From Lachnospiraceae bacterium UBA4380 (lineage in GTDB: Bacteria > Bacillota > Clostridia > Lachnospirales > Lachnospiraceae): a stretch of 19,963 nucleotides of DNA. A program made the translations under genes and the position numbers. The stretch lies in contig DGRU01000125.1 of NCBI GenBank assembly GCA_002390025.1, positions 28,435-48,397 on the forward strand, given 5' to 3'. Under the pieces are notes generated by a model. The model was not told where the DNA came from. It ran no database searches and saw nothing but the letters and a program-made list of their open reading frames with translations. This document shows, in pieces, positions 5,158-8,266 of the stretch (its first letter is position 1; each line of letters begins with the position of its first letter).

Positions 5158-6402
5158 GTGGGCCAGTATTTTGCTGTTTTTTTTATATCCATACTGATTT
5201 GCGCTGCGGGAGAGTGGGCGTGCAGAAGGAGCAGGACTGCAGGTACTTTCCTCTGCTGTCTGTCCGTCGCCTTTCCTGTGATTCTGGCGGGTGCAAGGGA
5301 CTATTCTGTGGGGACAGACATTGCGACTTACGGAAACTATGTCTTCCGGGGTGCCTGTAATGCGCGCAGACTCCGCGCCTTTCTGCGCACCCAGTCGGAG
5401 ATCGACCTTCTCTACAAAGGGCTGGCCTATGCGGTCTCCAGATTTACCAACAATCCCCACCTGTTTTATCTGGTGACAGCGCTCATCATCTGCGGGTTTA
5501 CCATGGCGGGACTGTGGTACTACAGGCGCTGGTGCTCCATCACTCTGGGCTGGGCCTGCTTCCTCTTTCTGTTTTACGGAGACACGCTCAACACCATGCG
5601 CCAGTGTCTGGCCCTGGCAATCATTTTCGCGGCTTTCCCCTTTTTTCTGGAAAAAAAGTATCTGCTCTTTGCGGTCTTTAACGCGGCAGCCATCCTGTTT
5701 CACGCGACAGGCCTCATCGCCCTGACGCTGCCGGTATTGTACCTGGTAATGAAAAAGATGCCGCCCCGCTGGCTGCAGTTCTTCCTCATCATCGCATGCA
5801 TGGGTGTGATCCTCTTTTACAGTCCCCTCCTGCGCATCGTATTGAACATGAACCTTCTGCCTGCCAAGTTCGCCAGGTACATGGCAAAGGGTGTCGCTGT
5901 GGCGCTCAATCCGACCATCCTGCGCCTGCCCTTCCTGATTCCTGTCATTCTTTATTACGACCGCTTCTGCGGATTTGAGGACATCACGGGAGACGGAGTG
6001 CTGGCGGGATCAGCGCAGGTCACTGATCCGGAGCCTGCGGCAGAAGATCCGGAGACAGGGGGAAAAGGGACATTCTGGGAGGACAGATCCGGGACACAGG
6101 TCCTGGGCATGTTCGTCGTGATCATGCTGCTCTTGGAAATCTGCACAGTGCAGCTTCGCAGCGTGCGCCCGGCCCTGTACAGGATCAGCTACTACTTCGG
6201 CTACTACAGGTTCATAGCCTATTCCCGCCTTGTCCGCATCCTGCGCAGAGACAACCGCGCCATTGTCGCCCTTGCCCTGCTCGTCTATCTGGCGGCTCTG
6301 TGGTATTACCAGAATGTCATTCAGGGCAACAACGAGATTTATCCCTATGTCTATGCGCCGGACTGGTTTCACAGGATTATCTATGTCATGCCTGCGGAAT
6401 GA
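5158..6402 (+). CDS. EpsG/Wzy-type polysaccharide polymerase
   Basis: A polytopic membrane protein of 414 residues starting at GTG 5158, chosen because GGAGG (5148-5152) lies five bases upstream and no ATG fits. Features of the EpsG family are visible: RDYSVGTDIATY (47-58) after the first two spans, TMRQCLALAI (146-155), and FHATGLIAL (181-189), followed by further membrane spans. These proteins join flipped repeat units at the outer face of the membrane. An unusual hydrophilic, Pro/Glu/Gly-rich stretch at about 272-313 interrupts the hydrophobic pattern between two late helices. It lies 29 bases after the second glycosyltransferase and is the last gene of the operon here. No terminator follows directly; the next feature is a MITE-like element. 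Confidence 0.85.
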   Translation: MGQYFAVFFISILICAAGEWACRRSRTAGTFLCCLSVAFPVILAGARDYSVGTDIATYGNYVFRGACNARRLRAFLRTQSEIDLLYKGLAYAVSRFTNNPHLFYLVTALIICGFTMAGLWYYRRWCSITLGWACFLFLFYGDTLNTMRQCLALAIIFAAFPFFLEKKYLLFAVFNAAAILFHATGLIALTLPVLYLVMKKMPPRWLQFFLIIACMGVILFYSPLLRIVLNMNLLPAKFARYMAKGVAVALNPTILRLPFLIPVILYYDRFCGFEDITGDGVLAGSAQVTDPEPAAEDPETGGKGTFWEDRSGTQVLGMFVVIMLLLEICTVQLRSVRPALYRISYYFGYYRFIAYSRLVRILRRDNRAIVALALLVYLAALWYYQNVIQGNNEIYPYVYAPDWFHRIIYVMPAE

Positions 6403-6527
6403 CAAAAGCCGCACAGACTTCCCGCACCGGGAAACTGCCGCACAGGCGGCCCCTGAACCGGTATCTGCTTTTGGCCCCGCGCCGGATCCTGCCAGTGATC
6501 CCCTCCGCGGGAGTGCAGAAGTGAATA

Positions 6528-6697
6528 CATAAATCGTTACTGTACCCGCCCCCTCGAAGGGCGTGTACATGTAACGCTGCGCGCGGCGATTCCAATACGC
6601 TTTGCGTGCGCCGCGCGCCGTTACACTCGGGATTTGCGCGAAAAAGCCGCGCAAAACACCTCGAATTTCAGGTTTGTTTGTACTGTAACCATAAATC
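6528..6697. mobile_element. MITE-like palindromic element with 8-bp flanking direct repeats
   Basis: The body at 6536-6689 (154 bp) begins with GTTACTGTAC and ends with GTACTGTAAC, which are inverted repeats matching at 9 of 10 positions. A perfect 8-bp direct repeat, CATAAATC, abuts both ends (6528-6535 and 6690-6697), as expected for a target-site duplication. Inside are three hairpins: 6535-6551/6559-6576 (about 16 pairs), 6571-6588/6609-6624 (16 pairs with a 2-base bulge), and 6634-6640/6648-6654 (7 pairs). The first two share GTAACG at 6571-6576, so they are alternatives. It is too short to encode a transposase, so it would be non-autonomous. Transposase family is not identified. Confidence 0.7.
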
Positions 6698-6701
6698 AAA
6701 C

Positions 6702-6721
6702 GAAAGGACTATGTAACAAAT
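6702..6721 (+). promoter_or_regulatory. malQ ribosome site with a start-stop codon pair
   Basis: AAAGGA at 6703-6708 is followed by ATGTAA (6711-6716), a start codon immediately followed by a stop, and then by the real malQ ATG at 6722. The distance from the ribosome site to 6722 (13 bases) is long, and to 6711 (2 bases) short. Initiation at 6722 is supported by protein homology. Confidence 0.4.
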
Positions 6722-8266
6722 ATGAAAAGAGAAAGCGGAATTCTGTATCCCGTATCATCCCTTCCCTCTCGCTTCGGAATCGGAAGCTTTTCCAGAGAGG
6801 CCTATGAATTCATCGATTTCCTCAAGGAAGCCGGCCAGTCCTACTGGCAGGTCCTGCCCCTCTGCCAGACCGGTTTTGGCGATTCGCCTTATCAGTCTGT
6901 CTCCTCCTTTGCAGGAAATCCCTACTTCATCGATCTGGAAAAGCTGATCGAAGAGGGACTTCTCACCTGGGATGAAGTGAACAGTTTTGATTTCGGCAGT
7001 GATCCCGAAAAAGTCGACTACGGTGCGCTCTACAATAACCGCTACAGCGCCCTGAAGATCGCTTTTGAGCGCTTCCGCTCTCTTGAGAATTCAGAAAGCC
7101 ACAGCAAATATCACGCAGAGTATCAGGAATATCTGGAGAGAGAGCATTACTGGCTCTTTGACTATGCCCTGTATATGGCTCTGAAGAAAAAATATGAGGG
7201 TAAATCCTGGACAGACTGGGACAAGGGCGAGCGCCTGCGCCAGAAGAGAGCCCTGACCCTCGCGGCAAAGGAACTCTCCGATGATATCGATTTCTACCGC
7301 TTCCTGCAGTTCCAGTTTGACCGCCAGTGGAAAAAGCTCCACGCATATGCGGCGGAGCAGGGTATCAAGATCATCGGCGACATCCCCTTCTATGTTGCCA
7401 TGGACAGCGCGGCGACCTGGGCGCATGCGGATATCTTCCGTTTCGACAAGGATCTGGTTCCCACTGTCGTGGCGGGATGCCCTCCGGATGCTTTCTCCCT
7501 GACCGGTCAGCTCTGGGGCAACCCTGTCTATGACTGGAAAAAACTCAAAAAGAACGGCTATGACTGGTGGATCCAGCGCTTTGCCCGCAACTTCGAGTTC
7601 TACGATGTGGTCCGACTCGACCACTTCAACGGATTTGCAGAGTACTACGAGGTGCCTTACGGCGACGAGACCGCCGAGCACGGCACAGTCGTCAATGGAC
7701 CCGGCAGCGATTTCTTCAATGCTGTGAAGAAAAAACTCGGTGATGTCGCGATCATCGCAGAGGACCTGGGCAATATCACCCCCGCTACAGAAGCGCTTCT
7801 GGCAGAAACCGGCTATCCGGGCATGAAGGTGCTCCAGTTTGCCTTTGACCCCAGTGAGTCCAGCTACTATCTGTCCTACAATCACGTGAAGAACGCGGTT
7901 GTCTACACAGGCACTCACGACAACACCACCACCCGCGCATGGATCGAGCAGTGCAGCGACCACGACCGCGATTTCGCCCGCCGCTTTATCCACTCCGAGT
8001 ACACCGATTACGGCGCATTCACCTGGGACTTCATCCGGGAAGCCTTCCGCAGCGTCTGCGACCTGTGCATCGTTCCTATCCAGGACTTCCTGGTCAAGGG
8101 TGAGGAAGCCCGCCTGAACACCCCCGGAACCGCCCAGGGCAACTGGCAGTGGCGCGTCGTTCCCAACCTGCTGTCCCACGACCTGGCCCGCAGCATCTAT
8201 GATCTGACAAAGACCTACGGACGCCTGCCCAAGGCAGACAAGGAAACCGCGGATCAGAAAAAATAA
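6722..8266 (+). CDS. malQ: 4-alpha-glucanotransferase (amylomaltase, GH77)
   Basis: Disproportionates maltodextrins by moving alpha-1,4-glucan segments between chains, in the cytoplasm, during starch, glycogen or maltodextrin use. The 514 residues match the usual length. The N-terminus (SGILYPVSSLPSRFGIGSF) is the family opening. Three catalytic acids are present in order: nucleophile D300 in VRLDHFNGF, acid/base E347 in IIAEDLG, and the transition-state stabiliser D400 in GTHDNTTT. The C-terminal WQWRVVPNLL block is also typical. It sits alone between the MITE-like element and a strong terminator; no other maltose gene is visible. Because the mobile-like element ends about 24 bases before the start codon, its promoter must lie within or beyond that element unless it is read through from the polysaccharide operon (inference). 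Confidence 0.96.
   Translation: MKRESGILYPVSSLPSRFGIGSFSREAYEFIDFLKEAGQSYWQVLPLCQTGFGDSPYQSVSSFAGNPYFIDLEKLIEEGLLTWDEVNSFDFGSDPEKVDYGALYNNRYSALKIAFERFRSLENSESHSKYHAEYQEYLEREHYWLFDYALYMALKKKYEGKSWTDWDKGERLRQKRALTLAAKELSDDIDFYRFLQFQFDRQWKKLHAYAAEQGIKIIGDIPFYVAMDSAATWAHADIFRFDKDLVPTVVAGCPPDAFSLTGQLWGNPVYDWKKLKKNGYDWWIQRFARNFEFYDVVRLDHFNGFAEYYEVPYGDETAEHGTVVNGPGSDFFNAVKKKLGDVAIIAEDLGNITPATEALLAETGYPGMKVLQFAFDPSESSYYLSYNHVKNAVVYTGTHDNTTTRAWIEQCSDHDRDFARRFIHSEYTDYGAFTWDFIREAFRSVCDLCIVPIQDFLVKGEEARLNTPGTAQGNWQWRVVPNLLSHDLARSIYDLTKTYGRLPKADKETADQKK

Follow-up and report, generated by a model that had tools for sequence, protein, structure and literature searches.

A gene-less, hairpin-forming miniature element with an 8-bp target duplication upstream of malQ in a Lachnospiraceae genome

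The malQ locus

The stretch of DNA analysed here (the window) comprises 19,963 nucleotides from Lachnospiraceae bacterium UBA4380. Within it, a short element lies between malQ and its own upstream neighbour, an EpsG-like gene. The features of the locus are listed below.

6528-6535, no strand: left-hand CATAAATC of the 8-bp target duplication; an exact repeat, single copy at the empty site of G054
6536-6689, + strand: gene-less MITE of 154 bp, recognised by its ends, its duplication and its own-genome relatives; top family-model score in G000, with the window copy among the model rows
6536-6546, + strand: left terminal inverted repeat GTTACTGTACC, matching the GTTAC[AT]GT.CA ends of IS66-like elements save for the last base
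6536-6575, + strand: hairpin H1, with the left end inside; folds, and its outer helix shows 99.1% pairing over the 44 copies aligned
6579-6618, + strand: hairpin H2, stem 6579-6588 with 6609-6618; stem letters vary among copies and pairing is maintained
6625-6665, + strand: hairpin H3 region with the motif ACTCGGG..stem..CACCTCGAA; inner stem 6633-6640 with 6648-6655
6679-6689, - strand: right terminal inverted repeat, GTTACAGTACA on the - strand
6690-6697, no strand: right copy of the target duplication CATAAATC, an exact repeat
6698-6721, + strand: malQ leader of the host, lying outside the element and containing the likely ribosome-binding site (GAAAGGAC); a single base is different at the empty site
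6722-8266, + strand: malQ, a host gene for 4-alpha-glucanotransferase (PF02446, E = 1.2e-176; TIGR00217, above cut-off)

The length of 154 bp includes the terminal inverted repeats, whose outermost bases, GTTACTGTAC at 6536-6545 and GTACTGTAAC at 6680-6689, are complementary at nine of ten positions. The element folds into three hairpins both as RNA (z = -4.6) and as single-stranded DNA (z = -5.0), and in each case none of 200 shuffled sequences was equally stable. The inverted repeats, the three hairpins and the exact 8-bp repeats at both borders had been described in the original prediction, and all are seen in the sequence and its folds. The distance of about 24 bases given there between the element and the malQ start is likewise correct, since exactly 24 bases separate the right duplication from the ATG at 6722. 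No open reading frame of at least 90 aa is contained in the element, and a transposase gene is absent.

Copies, target duplications and an empty site

When the copy in the window was used as query, six further places in its own genome were matched, three over ~140-154 bases and three over 34-60 bases. An own-genome relative used as query returned 31 matches at E ≤ 1, itself included; among these were nine full-length copies (again counting the query) that are 98-100% identical and lie on nine contigs. Across the genus, 11 of 62 genomes match the MITE at E ≤ 0.001, in a survey that scored at most 13 candidates per genome and whose copy numbers are floors. At this search sensitivity the close MITE family appears confined to one clade, because the carriers coincide exactly with the 11 genomes whose malQ is at least 87% identical to that of the window. 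An exact-pattern scan of named genomes, from which host-genome records may be left out, returned 83 stretches. Among the 80 listed, all came from Lachnospiraceae or Eubacteriales assemblies or from 'Sarcina sp. DSM 11001', apart from one Paraburkholderia contig, which carries a 22-base pattern only, without the hairpin, and was judged a chance match.

Target duplications were assessed in 73 distinct full-length copies from the loci analysed, chosen by their ends and right-hand motif with the flanks ignored. The 8-bp flanks agree with at most one mismatch in 61 of these copies (exactly in 48), against 0-4 for shifted 8-mer controls, and 12 copies have no duplication within one mismatch. The target 8-mers vary from site to site, and the base before the left end is preferentially C (49 of 73). 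Further copies with different flanking 8-mers, which the original prediction had proposed to look for in related genomes, are thus present. Since relatives occur elsewhere in the genome and the duplications so far exceed the shifted controls, the pairing of terminal repeats with an abutting duplication is, as had been argued, not a product of chance. MITE copies adjoin many different genes, and 52 of 65 (taken from the same 73) are intergenic by a crude ORF test.

An empty site upstream of an orthologous malQ, another proposed check, was found in the sister genome G054, whose malQ protein is 98% identical to that of the window. Here CATAAATC occurs once and is followed by the same leader, with one base different, and the start codon. 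This empty site indicates that the element before malQ was inserted there and that the insertion spared the likely ribosome-binding site. The locus therefore holds an element of less than 300 bp with inverted ends, dispersed copies, varied 8-bp duplications and an empty site (one site tested), all of which are MITE criteria. The predicted MITE with an 8-bp target duplication is borne out by the varied 8-mers, by the empty site and by a like-ended insertion sequence in a sister genome, described below.

Two further arrangements were observed. At L105:150-440, in the element's own genome, the left part of the contig crosses the target site without the element and is followed by a run of N and then by the occupied version; the two may represent alleles with and without the element in the population sampled, perhaps joined by scaffolding. 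In G017 (L247), the region just upstream of malQ contains the truncated right end of a further MITE copy, at a different position.

Conservation of the fold and relatives in other genera

Fold conservation within the genus was assessed by aligning the 44 element sequences of 150-156 bp, out of 81 distinct ones. Across helices H1 and H2, 97.9% of cells are paired, compared with at most 57% when the partner was slid along the alignment, and both sides have changed in 11 of the 24 H1/H2 pairs. Seven different H2 stems occur, each with full complementarity across ten pairs, and H2 pairing is perfect in 33 of the 44 copies. Taken without tree correction, these paired changes are strong evidence for the H1/H2 fold; the copies are related, and the further pair types (18, against a shuffle mean of 20.9) do not exceed the shuffles. 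Longer copies bear extra small hairpins.

A covariance model was built from the 44 aligned copies and used to search 299 genomes of the family at a threshold of E ≤ 1e-5. Matches were obtained in 17 genomes, namely the host and 16 of the 298 others, each of a different other genus; G030, a further genome of the host's genus, gave no match at this threshold. We examined 40 of the 54 other-genus matches listed, a set in which each of the 16 genomes is represented. Of these, 39 are complete, and almost all carry ends of the same type. The flanking 8-mers, which were unseen by the model, are duplicated exactly in 27 of these 39 and with one mismatch in six more (33 of 39). At least one copy with a duplication of at most one mismatch is present in 13 of the 16 other genera; G286 and G336 have none, and the copy in G298 is cut. 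In 0.8 Mb of G163, seven end pairs with a duplication were found, all of them exact, against 0 in the shift control.

By eye, the motif CTCGGG..TTTT-stem-AAAACACCTCG or something close to it was recognised on the right-hand side of 31 of the 40 other-genus relatives; the right half of the remaining nine is different. In the 99 sequences parsed (of 113), the fourth base of the motif and its partner are G-C in 94, C-G in two, A-T in two and A-C in one. When RNAalifold was applied to a mixed-genus MAFFT alignment of 31 rows selected for the H3 motif, five from the genus and 26 from other genera, only the two ends were paired; the 26 other-genus rows gave short internal helices. Since only the ends pair in this alignment, the case for a common fold between genera is based on the H3 motif with its basal pair and on the model search.

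Small recurrent modules were seen among the hairpins. The 15-mer CAAAGCTTCGCATTG occurs 44 times in six of seven genomes searched, its reversed pattern not once, and it is absent from G000. In the 31 contexts read, it mostly lies, by eye, inside family hairpins (H1, H2 or H3, depending on the copy). It is a 15-nt imperfect hairpin that recurs in different MITE hairpins (L280, L303 and others), and at two loci it forms short tandem runs with a ~17-bp period. A second module of ~24 nt (AACACACT..AGTGTGTT or AACAAACT..AGTTTG) is found in the 3' arm of H2 at L121, L171, L187, L206, L217 and L073. Three of the seven G163 copies (contig C1, 91036-91268, 161325-161557 and 721916-722148) have a common ~90 bp insert in H2 with its own hairpins, and each has an exact 8-bp duplication. 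One idea is that such modules arise by fold-back template switching.

Taken as a group, the relatives look like an old MITE superfamily whose three-hairpin fold is kept by paired changes and which gains small hairpin modules. A stronger version, which we regard as tentative and rather doubtful, is that of a long-lived superfamily of structured MITEs with the internal three-hairpin fold, besides the ends, as its conserved unit, needed for mobility or survival, undergoing compensatory change over the 17 genera with matched relatives, and gaining and swapping hairpin modules of 15-90 nt. The fold would then be recognised as single-stranded DNA or RNA, or be read by the transposase.

A candidate source of transposase

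IS66 elements usually carry a tnpA/tnpB/tnpC set and GTAA ends, the accessory tnpB (IS66 Orf2) being a defining feature. An insertion sequence of 2628 bp in the sister genome G043 (L144:1877-4504), reached by following the longer ends GTTACAGTTCAGGCCCACCTG of other small sister-genome elements, has the ends GTTACAGTTCAGGCCCTACTGA and GTTACAGTTCAGACCCATCTGA and the duplication CAAAAATT on both sides. It holds two genes, one for a 124-aa protein of no known family and one for a 568-aa protein with an IS66 transposase domain (PF03050, E = 1.3e-10; score 41.6 bits, gathering threshold 23.1). The transposase scores 110 bits with the NCBIfam IS66 model NF033517, below the cut-off of 180, and no sequence match to it was found among solved structures. 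Because the first gene has no Pfam or NCBIfam match, and hence none to tnpB (IS66 Orf2), the element is called IS66-like. This small first gene (L144:3800-4174) is common to these IS66-like elements, with homologues in L270, L271, L273, L146 and L148.

The original prediction had also proposed a search for a full insertion sequence with the same ends. One with ends of that kind was found in this sister genome but none in the host assembly (75% complete), which gave no transposase match at E ≤ 1e-40. Paired MITE left ends in G043:C12 (1076 bp) and G026:C32 (688 bp) were considered as autonomous copies and rejected as a MITE near another end and a broken copy.

Among the 62 genomes, close homologues of the transposase (93-100% identity, E ≤ 1e-40) occur in G043 and G033, which are only two of the 11 MITE-carrying genomes; the G033 homologue is truncated where its contig stops. 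Four genomes without a MITE match (G001, G002, G034 and G057) hold homologues at 35-42%. Nine loci with such transposases were searched for inverted ends flanked by an exact 8-bp duplication, with the end sequence left free. Six of them, including all four of the 35-42% homologues, returned a GTTAC-type pair, and L148, L269 and L274 returned none. Five elements with GTTAC-type ends and an 8-bp duplication around homologous transposases were recognised (L144 and L270-L273), together with a more distant sixth in G039 that has GTTACTATTCACAG ends and the duplication CTCTTTCA. A MITE right end in G017, GTTACAGTTCAGGCCCACCTG, agrees with an insertion-sequence end in G033, GTTACTGTTCAGGCCCACCTG, at 20 of 21 letters. 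In pairwise comparison, the MITE and the insertion sequence have no homology beyond the end and short chance matches. Another MITE type, in G042 (L087, L092, L117-L119, L122, L124 and L125), also has the ends GTTACAGTTCAGGCCCACCTG and 8-bp duplications, and is perhaps served by the same kind of transposase.

Given the like ends and the 8-bp duplication of IS66-like elements in the genus, trans-mobilisation is the best mechanism, and we infer that the MITE was very probably moved in trans by an IS66-like DDE transposase making an 8-bp staggered cut. The full insertion sequence would supply this transposase, which would recognise the GTTAC[AT]GT.CA ends of the gene-less element; insertion at the staggered cut, followed by gap filling, would yield the 8-bp duplication. 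In the window, the element landed between the EpsG-like gene and malQ, 24 bp ahead of the malQ start codon. The conserved hairpins may matter for mobility or survival.

Alternatively, the MITE may be moved by another transposase that uses GTTAC-type ends and produces an 8-bp duplication, the IS66-like elements being convergent or former partners. This would agree with the lack of hits at E ≤ 1e-20 when a profile of six IS66-like transposases was run, with no positive control, against the 16 genomes of other genera. It would also agree with the tblastn result for the 0.8 Mb of G163, where no IS66-like transposase was detected, yet the exact duplications suggest fairly recent moves. However, the ends and the 8-bp duplication fit the five elements and the distant sixth in G039, and no other gene-sized element with these ends and this duplication is present among the elements listed, so that we consider a different mover fairly unlikely.

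The malQ leader

Two regulatory roles suggested for the element fared less well. It had been proposed to have replaced or supplied the malQ control region; instead, the 24 nt that precede the ATG are identical to those at the empty site except for a single base, and a consensus scan detected no sigma-70-like promoter on the + strand of the malQ leader in either the filled or the empty genome. A folding model gives the start codon a mean unpaired probability of 0.44 with the element and 0.69 without it. Since the start codon is predicted to be less open when the element is present, some effect on malQ may exist.

The second suggestion was a cis-acting RNA switch in the malQ leader, with two hairpins vying for the same GTAACG. 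The element is indeed located in the presumed leader, and alternative pairings in the window copy differ by only about 2 kcal/mol. However, the competing GTAACG/CGTTAC pair is found in only 2 of the 44 aligned copies, and the diversity of genes next to other copies also argues against the switch. Moreover, no full-length element was seen in the 330 bases upstream of malQ in ten sister genomes (G054 having the empty site, G017 the partial right end and G024 a run of N), and no Rfam match was obtained at E ≤ 1 in positions 6000-7200 of the window or, at E ≤ 0.05, in the 11 other-genus loci (of 40) that were scanned. We therefore regard such a switch as highly improbable. Even less credible is a simple bidirectional terminator or immobile conserved intergenic repeat, which the strong hairpins and mostly intergenic copies would suit but which the empty site and the site-to-site variation of the duplications refute as a complete account, and a terminator scan listed none inside the element.

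Comparison with known systems

MITE interiors are usually regarded as disposable filler. Here, a common fold and, in most relatives, a common motif are kept in several genera while the stem letters change in pairs. If selection for structure is the cause, it becomes testable whether a parasite of a DDE transposase uses folded DNA or RNA for moving or for avoiding harm. The family also gives clean insertion sites for comparing rumen-type Lachnospiraceae, and it points to a two-gene IS66-like subgroup as the likely transposase source. No publication on an IS66-linked MITE family of Lachnospiraceae was found among the titles and abstract openings searched, which cover the literature in part.

As described in the available excerpts, the IS66 elements ISPpa5a (2829 bp) and ISPpa7 (2731 bp) are both tabulated with 8-bp direct repeats (PMC3281130). 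The G043 element resembles this family in its size class (~2.6-2.8 kb), its 8-bp duplication and its PF03050 domain. It differs in having two genes, the first of them unmatched, in a NF033517 score of 110 bits against the cut-off of 180, and in its GTTAC ends.

Among bacterial MITEs, excerpts of the respective reports tie MITEPsy1 of Pseudomonas syringae to ISPsy2, with a duplication of 4 nt (PMC3189936), and MITECca01 of Cardinium to an IS982-family element (PMC9769881). Both, so far as described there, are like the element here in being short and gene-less, with inverted ends resembling those of a related insertion sequence and with several copies, and MITEPsy1 also duplicates its target (PMC3189936). 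The element here differs from these two in its duplication of 8 bp, its IS66-like candidate partner, its three hairpins maintained by paired changes and its relatives matched in 16 other genera.

REPINs, according to the portions of PMC3116915 consulted, are REP doublets linked to RAYT tyrosine transposases, in which compensatory hairpin changes are common. They share with the MITE a gene-less, dispersed and hairpin-forming nature and such compensatory changes. The MITE, however, duplicates 8 bp of its target and has the ends of DDE-type elements, its candidate partners, which argues against its being a REPIN. Because REPIN hairpins with compensatory changes are already known (PMC3116915), the MITE fold is not by itself novel in kind. 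What is new here is the link to IS66, the distribution over several genera and a fold that is both conserved and modular.
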